Shown here piece by piece: positions 33,586 to 41,426 of a stretch of 64,000 nt of DNA (position 1 is the stretch's first letter; each line of letters starts with the position of its first letter). A program made the position numbers and the translations under genes. Below the pieces are notes generated by a model, which saw only the letters and a list, made by a program, of their open reading frames with translations, was not told where the DNA came from and searched no databases. The stretch lies in the NCBI RefSeq assembly GCF_024464595.1, contig NZ_JANHAW010000001.1:186001-250000 (forward strand). The letters run 5' to 3'. The stretch is from Halobellus litoreus. Its GTDB lineage: Archaea > Halobacteriota > Halobacteria > Halobacteriales > Haloferacaceae.

Positions 33586-35811
33586 TTACTGGAACCCGAT
33601 CCGGCCGTCGCGGCGCTCGCCGATGCCCTCGCGGGTGCCACCCTTGAACTGGTCCTGCATCTGCTCGTAGTAGTCGAGCAGGTCGTCCGTGATCGTCGGC
33701 CGCACGGACTCCATCGCCTGCCGGAAGTGCCGCATCTCGATCTCCTCGGCGTCGTCGTCCTCGCGAAGCGCCTCGATAGCGGCCTCGCGAGCGATGGTCT
33801 GGAGGTCCGAGCCGACGTAGCCGTCGGTGATCTCCGCGATTTCGCGCAGGCTCACGTCGGGCGCGAGCGGCGAGTTGCGGGTGTGTATCTTCAGGATCTG
33901 CTCGCGGCCCTCCTCCTCGGGTTGACCGATGAGCACCAGCCGATCGAACCGCCCCGAGCGGATCAGGGCGGGGTCGATCATGTCCGGTCGGTTGGTCGCG
34001 GCGATCACCATCACGTCGCCGTTCTCCTCCAACCCGTCCAGTTCCGTCAGGAGTTGGTTGACGACACGCTCGGAGACGTTGTTGCCGGTCTCGCCGCCCC
34101 GACTCGGCGCGAGGCTGTCGAGCTCGTCGAAGAAGATGATCGTCGGGCTGACCTGTCGGGCCTTCCGGAACGTCTGGCGAATCGCCTTCTCGGACTCGCC
34201 GACCCACTTCGAGAGCAGTTGCGGCCCCCGGACCGAGATGAAGTTCGCGTTCGTCTCGTTGGCGACGGCCTTCGCGATGAGGGTCTTTCCTGTCCCTGGG
34301 GGCCCGTAGAGCAGCACGCCCTTCGGCGGGTCGATACCCATCCGGTCGAACCGGTCCTGGGAGGTCAACGGCCACTCGACGCTCTCTTTGACCGTCTGTT
34401 TGGGGTCTTCGAGGCCGCCGACGTCGTCCCACGACACCTTCGGGAGTTCGACGAGCACCTCCCGCATCGCCGAGGGTTCGACGTCCGCGAGCGCGCCCTG
34501 GAAGTCCTGGCGCTTGACGATCATCCGGTCGATGAGGCTCGGCGGGATGTCCTCCTCGTCGAGGTCGATCTCCGGGAGGTATCGGCGGAGCGCCTTCATC
34601 GCCGCCTCCTTCGTCAGCGACTCGATGTCAGCGCCGACGAAGCCGTGGGTCTCGTCGGCGAGGTGATCGAGCGAGACGTCGTCCGACAGCGGCATCCCGC
34701 GGGTGTGGATCTGGAGGATCTCCTTGCGACCCACCTCGTCGGGGACGCCGATCTCGATCTCGCGGTCGAAGCGGCCGGGCCGGCGCAGCGCCGGATCGAC
34801 GCTGTCGACGCGGTTCGTCGCCGCGATGACGATGACCTCCCCGCGCGTCTCTAAGCCATCCATCATCGTCAGCAGTTGGGCGACGACGCGGCGCTCGACC
34901 TCGCCGGTCACGTCGTCGCGCTTCGGCGCGATCGAGTCGAGTTCGTCGATGAAGATGATCGACGGCGACTCCTCGGTGGCGTCCTCGAAGATCTCGCGCA
35001 ACTGCTGTTCGGACTCGCCGTAGTACTTCGAGATGATCTCCGGGCCGGCGATCGAGAAGAAACTCGCGGAGGTCTCGTTGGCGACGGCCTTCGCGAGCAG
35101 CGTCTTCCCGGTCCCGGGCGGCCCGTGGAGCAGCACGCCCTGCGGCGGCTCGATCCCGAGTTTCTTGAAGATCTGCGGGTGCTTCATCGGGAGTTCGACC
35201 ATCTCGCGGACGCGCTGGATCTCGTTCTGGAGGCCGCCGATGTCCTCGTAGGTGATCCCGCCGCCGGTCTTCTCGAAGCCCGAGATAGGCTCCTCGCGGA
35301 GTTCGACCTCGGTGTCCTCGGTGACGAGACAGACGCCGTCGGGTTCGGTCTCGACCGCGATGAGCGGAATCGCCTGCCCGGGCGACCGCATAAACGGGTG
35401 GTTCGTCGACGACATCACCGGGACGATGTCGCGCTCGACGACCGGCCGCTTGAGGATCTGCCGTTTGACCATCCCGGCGGCGTCGGAGCCGAACTGCACG
35501 CTCGCCTCCTCCGGCGGCGCGAGAACGAGTTTCTCCGCCTTCGTTTCCTCGGCTTTTCGGATCGTCACGCGCTCGCCGATGCTGACGTCGGCGTTCTGTC
35601 GCGTGAAGCCGTCGATGCGGACCGTGTCGGTGTTCCAGTCCTGCCGGTCCGCGCGCCACACCTTCGCCGCGGTGGTCTCGGCGCCCTCGATTTCGATGAT
35701 GTCGCCCGGCGAGAGCTTCAGATGGAGCAACGTGTCCGGGTCGAGACGGGCGATACCGCGGCCCGAGTCGTTCGGGTACGCCTTCGCCACTTCGAGTTGA
35801 ACTTCGTTCAT
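33586..35811 (-). CDS. cdc48: CDC48/VCP-type AAA+ ATPase
   Basis: The 741-residue protein has an N-terminal double-psi-barrel domain (about residues 1-180) and two AAA modules. The Walker A motif [13 protein letters not shown] is at residues 230-242, and a second copy is near residue 503. The Walker B motifs are [13 protein letters not shown] and [13 protein letters not shown]. It unfolds and extracts proteins, often feeding the proteasome (psmB at 8.2 kb). A TATA-like box ggacttaacc lies about 45 bases upstream of the start on this strand. Confidence 0.95.
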
Positions 35812-36002: not shown

Positions 36003-37412
36003 ATGCGCACACTCGCCTTCGACGGCCGGATGGGTGCCAGCGGCGATATGCTGTTGGGCGCGCTCCTCTCGGCCGGCGCGGACCGCGACGCGCTCTCCCC
36101 CGTGGAGGACGCGCTCGACGTCCGATACGACGTGGAGACCGTCGACAAGAACGGAATTGCGGCCACGAGCGTCCGGGTGCTGATCGACGACGCGGACGGA
36201 TCGCGGCGCTCTGCGACCGACGACGCGGACCCCGACAGCGACGATCGAGGAGACGAGTCGGACGCTGAACCCGGGCACAAATACCACCTCGGGCATAGCC
36301 ACGACCACGATCAGTCTCACAACCATACCCACGCTGATCACGCTCACAGCCACACCCACGCCGATCCCGATCACTCTCACGGCGACCACGACTCGGGCGC
36401 GACGCCCGCAGAGGGCCACGGGCCGCACCGGACGTACGCCGAGGTCGTCGAAATCGTCGAGTCGATGGGACTCCCCGACCGGGTCGAGTCGGACGCGACG
36501 GCCATCTTCCGCCGCCTCGGCGAGGCCGAATCGACGGTTCACGACACCGATCTCGACGCGACGCACTTCCACGAGGTCGGCGCGGACGACGCTATCGCGG
36601 ACGTCGTCGGCGTTGCGCTTCTCCTCGATGACCTCGGCGTCGAGCGGGTCGTCACGACGCCGCTCGCGACGGGCGGCGGCACGCAGGGAATGGCCCACGG
36701 CGACTACCCGATCCCGGCCCCGGCGGTCGTCGAGATCGCGACCGACGCCGAGTGGTCGCTGCGGGGCGGCCCGGTCGACGCGGAACTGCTCACGCCCACG
36801 GGCGCGGCGATCCTCGCGCACGTCGCCGAGGGCGTCGACGCGCTGCCCGCGCTGACGGTCGACGCCGCGGGCTACGGCGCGGGCGGTTACGACTTCCCGG
36901 ACCGACCGAACGTCCTGCGAGCCATCGTCGGCGACGGCGGAGACCGCCTGGACCGCGAGGCGATCACCGTCCTGGAGACGAACCTCGACGACGCGACGCC
37001 CGAGGTGCTCGGGAACCTCCAGTCGACCCTCCAAGCCGTCGGCGCGCTCGACGTGAGCGTTCTCCCGGCCACGATGAAGAAGTCGCGGCCGGGCCACCTC
37101 GTGAAGGTCGTCGTCAAGCCCGAGGACGCCGAACGCGTGGCTCGTCGGCTCGCGTTCGAAACCGGGACGCTCGGGATCCGCGAGCACGGCGCTGGGCATC
37201 GCTGGGTGGCCGAGCGGGAGTTCCGGACCGCCGTACTCGAAATCGACGGCGAGCGCTATGAGGTCCCGGTCAAAGTCGCCAGCGACGCCGACGGAACCGT
37301 CTACGACTACAGCGCCGAGTACGACGCCGCGGCGGCGATCGCCGAAACGACCGGGCTACCCGCTCGCGAAGTGATGCGGCGGGCCGAATCGGCCGTTCGC
37401 GACGGGGAGTGA
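36003..37412 (+). CDS. larC: Nickel-pincer cofactor biosynthesis protein LarC (with His-rich linker)
   Basis: LarC inserts nickel into the pincer cofactor used by lactate racemase and related enzymes. The 469-residue protein has a typical LarC N terminus (MRTLAFDGRMGASGDMLLGA). The C-terminal part carries ETNLDDATPEVLG and the conserved KKSRPGHLVKVVV stretch. Between them, residues 92-129 hold 15 histidines, a likely nickel-storage segment. It is one uninterrupted frame, unlike species that split LarC by a frameshift. larB, larE and a LarA racemase are not in the window. The ATG at 36003 is chosen by homology. Confidence 0.9.
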   Translation: MRTLAFDGRMGASGDMLLGALLSAGADRDALSPVEDALDVRYDVETVDKNGIAATSVRVLIDDADGSRRSATDDADPDSDDRGDESDAEPGHKYHLGHSHDHDQSHNHTHADHAHSHTHADPDHSHGDHDSGATPAEGHGPHRTYAEVVEIVESMGLPDRVESDATAIFRRLGEAESTVHDTDLDATHFHEVGADDAIADVVGVALLLDDLGVERVVTTPLATGGGTQGMAHGDYPIPAPAVVEIATDAEWSLRGGPVDAELLTPTGAAILAHVAEGVDALPALTVDAAGYGAGGYDFPDRPNVLRAIVGDGGDRLDREAITVLETNLDDATPEVLGNLQSTLQAVGALDVSVLPATMKKSRPGHLVKVVVKPEDAERVARRLAFETGTLGIREHGAGHRWVAEREFRTAVLEIDGERYEVPVKVASDADGTVYDYSAEYDAAAAIAETTGLPAREVMRRAESAVRDGE

Positions 37413-37435: not shown

Positions 37436-37594
37436 CTACTCGCGGTCTCGAAGCGTATCGATGCGCGCTTCGAGGTCGTCAATCGCGTCTTGGACCTCCT
37501 GTCGCGCCTTCTCGCTCATCTCTTCGGCGTCGTCCGCCGCGTCTTCGAACGCCTGTCGGACACGTTCTACGGCTTCGGAGGTTTTGTCGCTCAT
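37436..37594 (-). CDS. Short coiled-coil protein
   Basis: Reading the minus strand from the ATG at 37594 gives a 52-residue product, MSDKTSEAVERVRQAFEDAA followed by charged heptad-like helices ending in RIDTLRDRE. There are no cysteines or membrane segments. It looks like a single long amphipathic helix that could dimerize as a coiled coil. It converges on larC. No family is recognised, and the frame has normal haloarchaeal codon bias. Confidence 0.6.
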   Translation of the reverse strand: MSDKTSEAVERVRQAFEDAADDAEEMSEKARQEVQDAIDDLEARIDTLRDRE

Positions 37595-37653
37595 ACGCGT
37601 CTGGGTACGCCGCCCACGGACCTAAAGGTACGGCCGGTATCCCGCCTCAACCC

Positions 37654-37729: not shown

Positions 37730-38536
37730 TCAGTCGACCGCGGGATCCGCGTCGTCCGTGCCGTCGCGGGCCCGGTGCGTTTCGAGGGCCTCCTCGACCG
37801 TCAGTTCGCCGGCCGCGACCCGCCGGGCGAGCCCCTCGTCGATCGTGCGGCCGTCACTCGATTCCTGCCGCGAGCGGTCCTTGATGCGTTGGAGTTCGCC
37901 GGCGGTCGGGTCGATCTCCCGCGAGTCCGTCGCCTCGCCGGAGAGCCGCGCGATGTTGACCGCTGCGAGGACGTCGCCCATCCCGCGCGCCCCCGTCCCG
38001 AGGTACGGCGTCGTCCCCGTCTCGTCGACGAGTTCGACCGTGACGTCGTCGAGGTCGTTGACCAGTTGGGAGCCCTGGAGCCGCGAGCCGTCGCCGATGC
38101 GGACCAGCGGGTTCGGGGCGTCGGCGGTCTCCCGCCGGATCGTCTCGACGGCGTCAGCCAGCGGGACCTGGAACGCGGCGACGACGGTGTCGCCGGTGAG
38201 GACGGCGATCCCGGGTCGCGTGCCAGGGTCGACGCCGACGACCGTCCGCCCGCCGCCGCCCCGGAGGATCGAGACCGCCTCTTCGACCGCGCGGCGGGCC
38301 TCCGCGGCCGTCGCGACGACCACGTCGATCTCGGCGGCTCCCGACGTGTCTCCGCCGGTCGCTGCCGACGGTCCACGGTCAGCGACCGCTCCGTCCTCGG
38401 GCGAGCGGATCACTACCCGCGTCCCGTCGGGCAGTTCCGCGCCGGGCTGTTGGGTGGTGAACGCCACCCCGCGATCCCGCAGTTCGTCGACGACGTCGTG
38501 GTACAGCTCGAAGTCGTCGGTCGCGACGACGATCAC
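37730..38536 (-). CDS. RuvC/YqgF-like fold protein, divergent from radB
   Basis: The 268-residue protein has a central motif VVGVDPGTRPGIAVL with Asp103, matching the first strand of RuvC/YqgF nucleases. A second acidic motif, VELVDETGTTPY (Glu172), recalls the YqgF DERLTT-type motif. A third is GMGDVLAAVNIARL with Asp188. An N-terminal alpha/beta region of about 95 residues is an extra part. Together these suggest a metal-dependent nuclease or resolvase, but activity is unproven. The gene is divergent from radB, whose start is 136 bases away. Confidence 0.7.
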   Translation of the reverse strand: MIVVATDDFELYHDVVDELRDRGVAFTTQQPGAELPDGTRVVIRSPEDGAVADRGPSAATGGDTSGAAEIDVVVATAAEARRAVEEAVSILRGGGGRTVVGVDPGTRPGIAVLTGDTVVAAFQVPLADAVETIRRETADAPNPLVRIGDGSRLQGSQLVNDLDDVTVELVDETGTTPYLGTGARGMGDVLAAVNIARLSGEATDSREIDPTAGELQRIKDRSRQESSDGRTIDEGLARRVAAGELTVEEALETHRARDGTDDADPAVD

Positions 38537-38671
38537 GCTCCGGTCCTTCGGCGGCTCAGTATATAAGGTGTCGTGCGAGTCGGCCGCGTTCGTCCCTCGA
38601 CTTCGACAGCCCCGTCGCGTTCGAGGGCTCGGACCGGGGGGTTTTTCGCCGAAGCCGACCGAGACACCCGC

Positions 38672-39367
38672 GTGTCAGACGCACTCACCACGGGGTGTCG
38701 GGCCCTCGACGACCTGCTCGGCGGTGGCTTCGAGCGCGGCACCGTCACGCAGCTCTACGGCCCGCCCGCGGCCGGGAAGACGAACGTCGCGCTCTCGTCG
38801 GCCGTCCAGGTCGCCGCCGCGGGCGAAACGGCCGTCTACATCGACACCGAGGGGCTCTCGATCGACCGGTTCCGCCAGCTGGCGGAGGCCGCCACGGGCG
38901 AGGGGCAGTCCGTCGAGGACGTCACCTCGCGGCTCATCGTCTCCGAGGCGCACGACTTCGAGGAGCAGGAGGAGGCCGTCCGCGACGCCGCCGAGTTCGC
39001 CGAGCGCGCGGAGCTGATCGTCCTCGACAGCGCGACCGGCTTCTACCGGCTCGAACGAACCGGCGACGCCGACGCCGGCGACTCGCTCCGTCGCGTGGCC
39101 AGCCAGGTGACGCACCTGCTCTCCCTGGCGCGGAAGCACGACCTCGCGGTGGTCATCACGAACCAGGTGTTCACCGATCCCGACAGCGATCGAACGCGAG
39201 CGCTCGGCGGCCACACGCTCGAACACTGGACGGGCGCGGTGCTCAGGCTCGAACGGTTCCGCGGCGGCAACCGTCGCGCGACGCTGGAGAAACACCGGGC
39301 GAAACCCGCGGGGGAGTCGTCGGCGTTCGAAATCACGGCCGGGGGGCTCTCGGGCGTCGAGCGCTGA
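38672..39367 (+). CDS. radB: DNA repair and recombination protein RadB
   Basis: RadB is a RecA/RadA paralogue that aids RadA filament work. The 231-residue protein has the ATPase core. Walker A is QLYGPPAAGKTNVALS and Walker B is AELIVLDSATGFYRLE. An N-terminal HhH domain, present in RadA, is absent, as expected. The start is GTG at 38672 (MSDALTTG), which gives the usual length. It sits beside a divergent RuvC-like gene and converges with the CBS protein. Confidence 0.94.
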   Translation: MSDALTTGCRALDDLLGGGFERGTVTQLYGPPAAGKTNVALSSAVQVAAAGETAVYIDTEGLSIDRFRQLAEAATGEGQSVEDVTSRLIVSEAHDFEEQEEAVRDAAEFAERAELIVLDSATGFYRLERTGDADAGDSLRRVASQVTHLLSLARKHDLAVVITNQVFTDPDSDRTRALGGHTLEHWTGAVLRLERFRGGNRRATLEKHRAKPAGESSAFEITAGGLSGVER

Positions 39368-40661: not shown

Positions 40662-41426
40662 TCAGTCGTCCGCTCGCGCGCTCTCGAACTGCTCGGCCGG
40701 GAGCCGGAGTTCCGCCAGTCCGGGCAGCCGCTCGATGTTGAACACGATCTTCAGATTGTCGGTGACAGGCTGACCGATACACGAGAGGCGGACGCCCTGT
40801 TCTTTCATCTCGTCGGTCAGGATGGTGCTCACCGGCATCTCGATTTCCCCCTCGACCACGGCGACCGCGCAGTTCGCACACGCGCCGCCGCGGCACGCGT
40901 AGGGCCACGAGAAGCCGTATCGCTCGGCCGCTTCCAGCAGCGTCTCGCGGTCCTCGACGACCAGTAGCCCGTGGCGGTCGACGTCGAGGTCCGCGGCCTC
41001 GGCCTTCTCGAAGAGGTCCTCGTCGGTGAGTTCCCAGCCGTTGGCTTCGAGCACCTCGTAGTCTAGGTACTCGACGGTCGGTCCGAGACTCCGATCCTCG
41101 CCCTCTTCGTCGGATCCCTCCGTCCCTCCGGATTCGCCTCGCGACCGCTCCGAACCGCGTCGGCCGTCGTCCCGACGTCCAGAGCCGGAACGCCCGTCCT
41201 CCGTCGTTCCGTTCCGACGGCCGCGGCCGTCGTCGATGTCGGTCTCGAACGTGGAGGGGTCGCGCCCCTCGGTGATGTGTTCGTAGGCGCGTCGGACGCG
41301 CTCGAACTCCACGAGCGACCCGCCGTGGTCGGGGTGAGCGTCCTTCACTCGCTTTCGATACGCCCGAACCACCGCGTCCCGGTCGGCGTCGGGGTCGATT
41401 CCCAGTACGTCGTACGGCGACTGCAC
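40662..41426 (-). CDS. J-domain and 2Fe-2S ferredoxin fusion protein
   Basis: Residues 1-60 are a J domain (MQSPYDVLGIDPDADRDAVV, HPD at 31-33). A disordered Gly/Arg/Ser/Glu linker follows. Residues about 120-254 are a plant-type ferredoxin with ligands Cys178, Cys183, Cys186 and Cys216 in YACRGGACANCAVAVV and RLSCIGQPV. The architecture is known in haloarchaea, where one such gene is called fer5. It could help deliver or assemble an Fe-S cluster with DnaK. A box cttaac (plus-strand gttaag at 41451) lies 25 bases upstream of the start. Confidence 0.9.
   Translation of the reverse strand: MQSPYDVLGIDPDADRDAVVRAYRKRVKDAHPDHGGSLVEFERVRRAYEHITEGRDPSTFETDIDDGRGRRNGTTEDGRSGSGRRDDGRRGSERSRGESGGTEGSDEEGEDRSLGPTVEYLDYEVLEANGWELTDEDLFEKAEAADLDVDRHGLLVVEDRETLLEAAERYGFSWPYACRGGACANCAVAVVEGEIEMPVSTILTDEMKEQGVRLSCIGQPVTDNLKIVFNIERLPGLAELRLPAEQFESARADD

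Follow-up and report, generated by a model that had tools for sequence, protein, structure and literature searches.

The gene that diverges from radB in Halobellus litoreus raises the question of what kind of protein haloarchaea encode beside this recombination mediator. The final steps of archaeal recombination are generally ascribed to Hjc and Hef. Within the 64,000-nucleotide stretch of DNA analysed here (the window), radB lies on the plus strand (38672-39367; NF006861, E 1.2e-126), and its partner on the minus strand (37730-38536) starts with GTG and encodes 268 aa. The original prediction gave the partner a span of 37730-38674 and called it a putative RuvC-like nuclease. The open reading frame is real, but the gene stops at 38536, the remainder being intergenic sequence and the first codon of radB; what became of the RuvC label is set out below. 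The databases offer no name: the sole Pfam match, to DUF460, is below threshold (16.4 bits against a cut-off of 28), NCBIfam holds nothing named, and single-sequence searches of the PDB and NCBIfam returned nothing useful. One annotated homologue was found, adjoining radB in Natronorubrum, and it is a "hypothetical protein". An arCOG or COG entry may already label the family as predicted nuclease, and our literature search found no paper on an archaeal YqgF-type protein adjoining radB. Haloferax HVO_2382, which one paper counts among interesting uncharacterised proteins (PMC10470531), would be a family member judging from its order beside radB, HVO_2383 (PMC7776575).

The impression of a conserved protein holds up. 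Homologues are present in 89 of 393 genomes searched in the phylum, at 57-79% identity in haloarchaea and about 35-46% in other family-level lineages, down to 33%. Homologues this distant, with invariant motifs, rule out a chance open reading frame antisense in a high-GC region. A defence gene and a viral origin were also considered and rejected, as PADLOC gave no match and no phage or viral relatives were found. In a search of genome_contigs, the best 80 matches listed are all haloarchaeal by title. The family profile picks out a single true copy in the genome to which the window belongs, and a weak additional match to a separate DUF460 protein. Upstream of the GTG start is a TATA box at -30 to -24 (38560-38566, minus strand) of the leaderless type, conserved in homologous loci: in 123 of 151 cases a GTG start is preceded by a T-rich box at -30 to -25 with AA at -11/-10. 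Such spacing fits a leaderless haloarchaeal transcript, and its conservation supports the start site.

An AlphaFold2 model of the full-length protein (pLDDT 88) divides it into three parts, all on the minus strand. The N-terminal alpha/beta domain (residues 1-93; 38258-38536) contains a low-confidence linker at residues 51-65 and is partly common to DUF460 proteins (profile columns 13-126). It is followed by the core (residues 94-213; 37898-38257) and a C-terminal helical region (residues 211-260; 37757-37906) with modelled helices at 211-224, 233-240 and 246-260, in which S222-R223 and the motif LARRVAxGELTxxEA are conserved and which has weak SHOCT-like matches. Foldseek with the full-length model gave no match at E<=0.001, and the long alignments were meaningless, so the core was modelled alone (pTM 0.84). 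Its predicted order, b1-b2-b3-a1-b4-a2-b5-a3, is that of an RNase H fold. The top Foldseek match, and the only one with E<=0.001, is Tex PA5201 (2oce; E 1.2e-4, probability 1.00, TM 0.67 by query), with other RNase H-like structures among the remaining matches.

Profile comparison with hhalign agrees with the fold. The core matches Tex at 90% over 112 columns, DUF460 at 80% over 46 columns and YqgF at 77.5% over 103 columns. For reference, the accepted pair Tex-YqgF scores 70%, and control profiles, made by shuffling the columns of the full-length family profile six times and by reversing it, reached at most 1.7%. In a joint alignment with YqgF and Tex, DPG, IGxG, VxLVDExxTT and D-xxAA are in register, and the family forms a clade of its own (support 0.997). 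By its profiles and its model, the 268-aa protein is thus of RNase H fold and of YqgF/Tex type, not RuvC, and belongs to an archaeal family, unnamed in the libraries searched, within the YqgF/Tex/DUF460 group.

The three acids that had been singled out beforehand are where they were said to be: Asp103 in GVDPG at the end of strand 1 (codon 38228-38230), Glu172 in VDETGT after strand 5 (38021-38023) and Asp188 in RGMGD of the C-terminal helix of the core (37973-37975), all on the minus strand. Each of the 50 aligned homologues, even at 33% identity, has them unchanged, as do all 155 loci of a larger, partly redundant set. Since only 32 columns of alignment A1 are invariant, it is unlikely by chance that three pre-named residues would all be among them; we estimate about (32/253)^3, or roughly 0.002. 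A strand-1 aspartate with further acids for a predicted metal site, as expected in the RNase H-like superfamily, thus appears here in invariant form. The order of the acids had been read as that of the RuvC/YqgF active site, of which the YqgF half stands. RuvC carries its second acid on strand 4, and the position of this acid has shifted to strand 5 in YqgF and Tex (PMC3985635). Strand 4 here carries IGxG and no conserved acid at the RuvC position, and the RuvC profile (PF02075) aligns at 14.5% over just 17 columns around DPG. RuvC proper was rejected on these grounds. A true Holliday junction resolvase of the RuvC type would explain the RNase H fold, the DPG at strand 1, the radB neighbour, the match to a PHROG "Holliday junction resolvase" family (E 9e-4, residues 97-195) and weak matches to the MOC1 resolvase; set against the profile and strand-4 results, and against the fact that Haloferax already resolves junctions by Hjc and Hef, a jointly essential pair (PMC7776575), we regard it as very improbable.

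Is the protein catalytically competent? Its acids make up the complete YqgF layout (strand 1, after strand 5, C-terminal helix) and align with D22, E106 and D122 of Deinococcus YqgF (DrYqgF), E172 falling on the glutamate of the YqgF DER motif and D188 on the helix aspartate. The 16 residues from Glu to Asp equal the E106-D122 spacing. In DrYqgF, E106A and D122A abolish RNase activity and D22A impairs it (PMC9601230). From this layout, spacing and mutant record, nuclease activity is likely by analogy. A different outcome would be a catalytically silent nucleic-acid-binding factor like Tex or Spt6, acting in transcription or recombination: the nearest profile and fold are, after all, those of the Tex YqgF domain, which lacks the helix acid and for which nuclease activity has not been demonstrated (PMC3985635). 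In the present family, unlike Tex, all three acids, the helix aspartate included, are strictly invariant, and S1 and HhH domains are lacking; we therefore hold a silent factor to be improbable.

On what such an enzyme would act is a separate matter. MtRuvX reportedly cleaves both branched DNA and RNA. DrYqgF cleaves RNA, prefers it and ignores junction DNA, EcYqgF matures 16S rRNA, and YqgF-type enzymes as a group variously cleave RNA, RNA/DNA hybrids or branched DNA (PMC9601230). Given that DrYqgF and MtRuvX differ in this way, the fold is no guide to the substrate, and gene context has to be considered. The shared divergent promoter region is confirmed, with a gap of 135 bp, and the pair is conserved: in 68 of 80 named haloarchaeal loci the two genes are divergent with a gap below 800 bp. 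Divergent pairing also occurs in four non-haloarchaeal family-level lineages; among distant loci, L031-L034, L042, L043 and L047 have radB adjacent. Further conserved neighbours are a larC-type nickel insertion gene (36003-37412, plus; PF01969, E 2.3e-125) and a cdc48 AAA ATPase gene (33586-35811, minus; PF02359/PF00004), and the whole set cdc48-larC-gene-radB is kept in distant archaeal families (L032, L042, L043, L047). In a further lineage (L044-L046), the gene closely follows FEN1 in the same orientation (TIGR03674 in L044 and L045, E about 1e-150). Two lineages (f32, f36) have no RadB near the gene, which there neighbours DUF373-like (by eye), MTAP or dihydroorotase genes.

Several other observations were made around these loci. 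Between larC and the gene, the window holds a short acidic open reading frame (37436-37595, minus; MSDKTSEAVERVRQAFEDAADDAEEMSEKARQEVQDAIDDLEARIDTLRDRE), possibly a small coiled-coil protein, and two genes downstream of radB is a 254-aa fusion of DnaJ and 2Fe-2S ferredoxin domains (40662-41426; PF00226, PF00111). RadB matches of about 740-790 bp, compared with 690, in L016, L020, L023 and L025 suggest insertions within RadB in some haloarchaea. Natronorubrum bangense apparently has two copies of the gene-radB pair, one chromosomal and one on an 828-kb plasmid (L090, L091), with the same 123-bp gap; either a duplication or an assembly artefact would account for this.

The pairing is not obligate. 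All 167 genomes searched in the window's family have RadB (in 164 it scores above the curated cut-off), whereas nearly every member of genus g2 lacks the gene, as do g7, g10 and g11. As several genera lost the gene and kept RadB, it is a conserved but dispensable companion of radB. In one genome that lacks it (L202, 4361-4894), the slot between radB and larC is filled by a very acidic 177-aa open reading frame that by eye looks amphi-Trp-type. A single g2 genome (G525; L205, L206) has a divergent copy of 53% identity near larC, on a contig other than that of radB, which may reflect late loss or re-acquisition.

These patterns bear on the main rival to a recombination nuclease, namely an RNA-processing nuclease, for example for rRNA ends or RNA turnover, as the E. 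coli and Deinococcus YqgF proteins seem to be, with nothing but a promoter region shared with radB. Loss of the gene without loss of RadB and the non-repair neighbours in two lineages would fit such an enzyme, as would the triad shared with YqgF and the RNA preference described above. On the other hand, it does not explain why distant archaea repeatedly have the gene linked to radB and, in separate cases, to FEN1, and dispensability in several genera would be odd for an rRNA maturase. Overall, RNA processing seems to us rather unlikely.

We instead favour, with a probability of roughly 0.5, a metal-dependent YqgF/Tex-type nuclease that trims branched or RNA-containing intermediates of recombination or repair. 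The trimming role is proposed because of the stable pairing with radB and the pairing with FEN1 in another lineage. Asp103, Glu172 and Asp188 would hold two divalent metals and cleave phosphodiester bonds in the manner of D22/E106/D122 of Deinococcus YqgF. The N-terminal alpha/beta domain and the C-terminal helical tail may choose the substrate or form dimers. The nuclease would assist Hjc and Hef by trimming the branched or RNA-containing DNA intermediates that arise in fork repair or in recombination by RadA/RadB. The match to the PHROG resolvase family also speaks for this reading. The computation shows that the gene is real and conserved and establishes its fold, family, triad and gene context; activity, substrate and a part in repair are inferred. 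If the protein is active, a role in recombination or repair is on balance probable. Counting against it are the non-obligate association with RadB, the two lineages in which RadB is not nearby and the sparing of junction DNA by DrYqgF; moreover, divergent neighbours can persist for promoter reasons alone. A wider possibility, which we advance tentatively, is that the family is an ancient archaeal group of YqgF/Tex-type nucleases which acts together with RadB (and FEN1) when recombination or replication intermediates are processed. It would supplement Hjc and Hef as one more enzyme for junctions or hybrids, with an intact triad in a Tex-like domain.

If the favoured reading is true, a conserved nuclease of different fold beside the mediator radB would add an enzyme to the recombination pathway. 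Alternatively, the family may be an archaeal equivalent of the YqgF/Tex proteins, which are themselves puzzling: even for the bacterial members, the true substrate is a matter of dispute. As the gene-radB pair occurs in Haloferax species, a direct test is possible in a model archaeon.

Among known systems, DUF460/COG2433 (PF04312) shares the archaeal distribution of the family. It gives sub-threshold matches in 33 of 35 family members (best E 2e-4), and the family profile in turn recovers DUF460 proteins (about 1e-4 to 1e-6), in some cases with the N-terminal part covered as well. DUF460 proteins are, however, about 690 aa long with a coiled-coil-like part and an extra strand-4 acid (AADV), and one co-exists in the same genome as a separate gene; with its score below the cut-off, DUF460 proper was rejected. 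YqgF/RuvX (PF03652; E. coli YqgF, DrYqgF 7w89, MtRuvX 7ess) places its three acids identically, and its DERLTT resembles the VDETGTT motif. E. coli YqgF is a bacterial protein of 138 aa with DFG/DxG instead of DPG, whereas the 268-aa protein has extra N- and C-terminal domains; PF03652 matched neither the query at E<=10 nor any member at E<=1, and YqgF/RuvX proper, a single short domain, was rejected. The YqgF domain of Tex (PF16921; P. aeruginosa PA5201, PDB 2oce/3bzc) is the best match in profile and fold over the whole domain, with DPGxRxG, IGxG, VxExGxxxY and xxAVxIAR in common. Tex proper was rejected: hmmscan with PF16921 matched neither the protein nor family members, and the HTH, HhH and S1 domains of Tex are absent from the Pfam matches. 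Tex itself is over the cut-off in only 2 of 120 genomes of the phylum, so the gene is not a fragment of a resident Tex. Tex measures about 770 aa, has S1 and HhH domains and lacks a conserved acid in its last helix; the haloarchaeal protein, at 268 aa, keeps all three acids.
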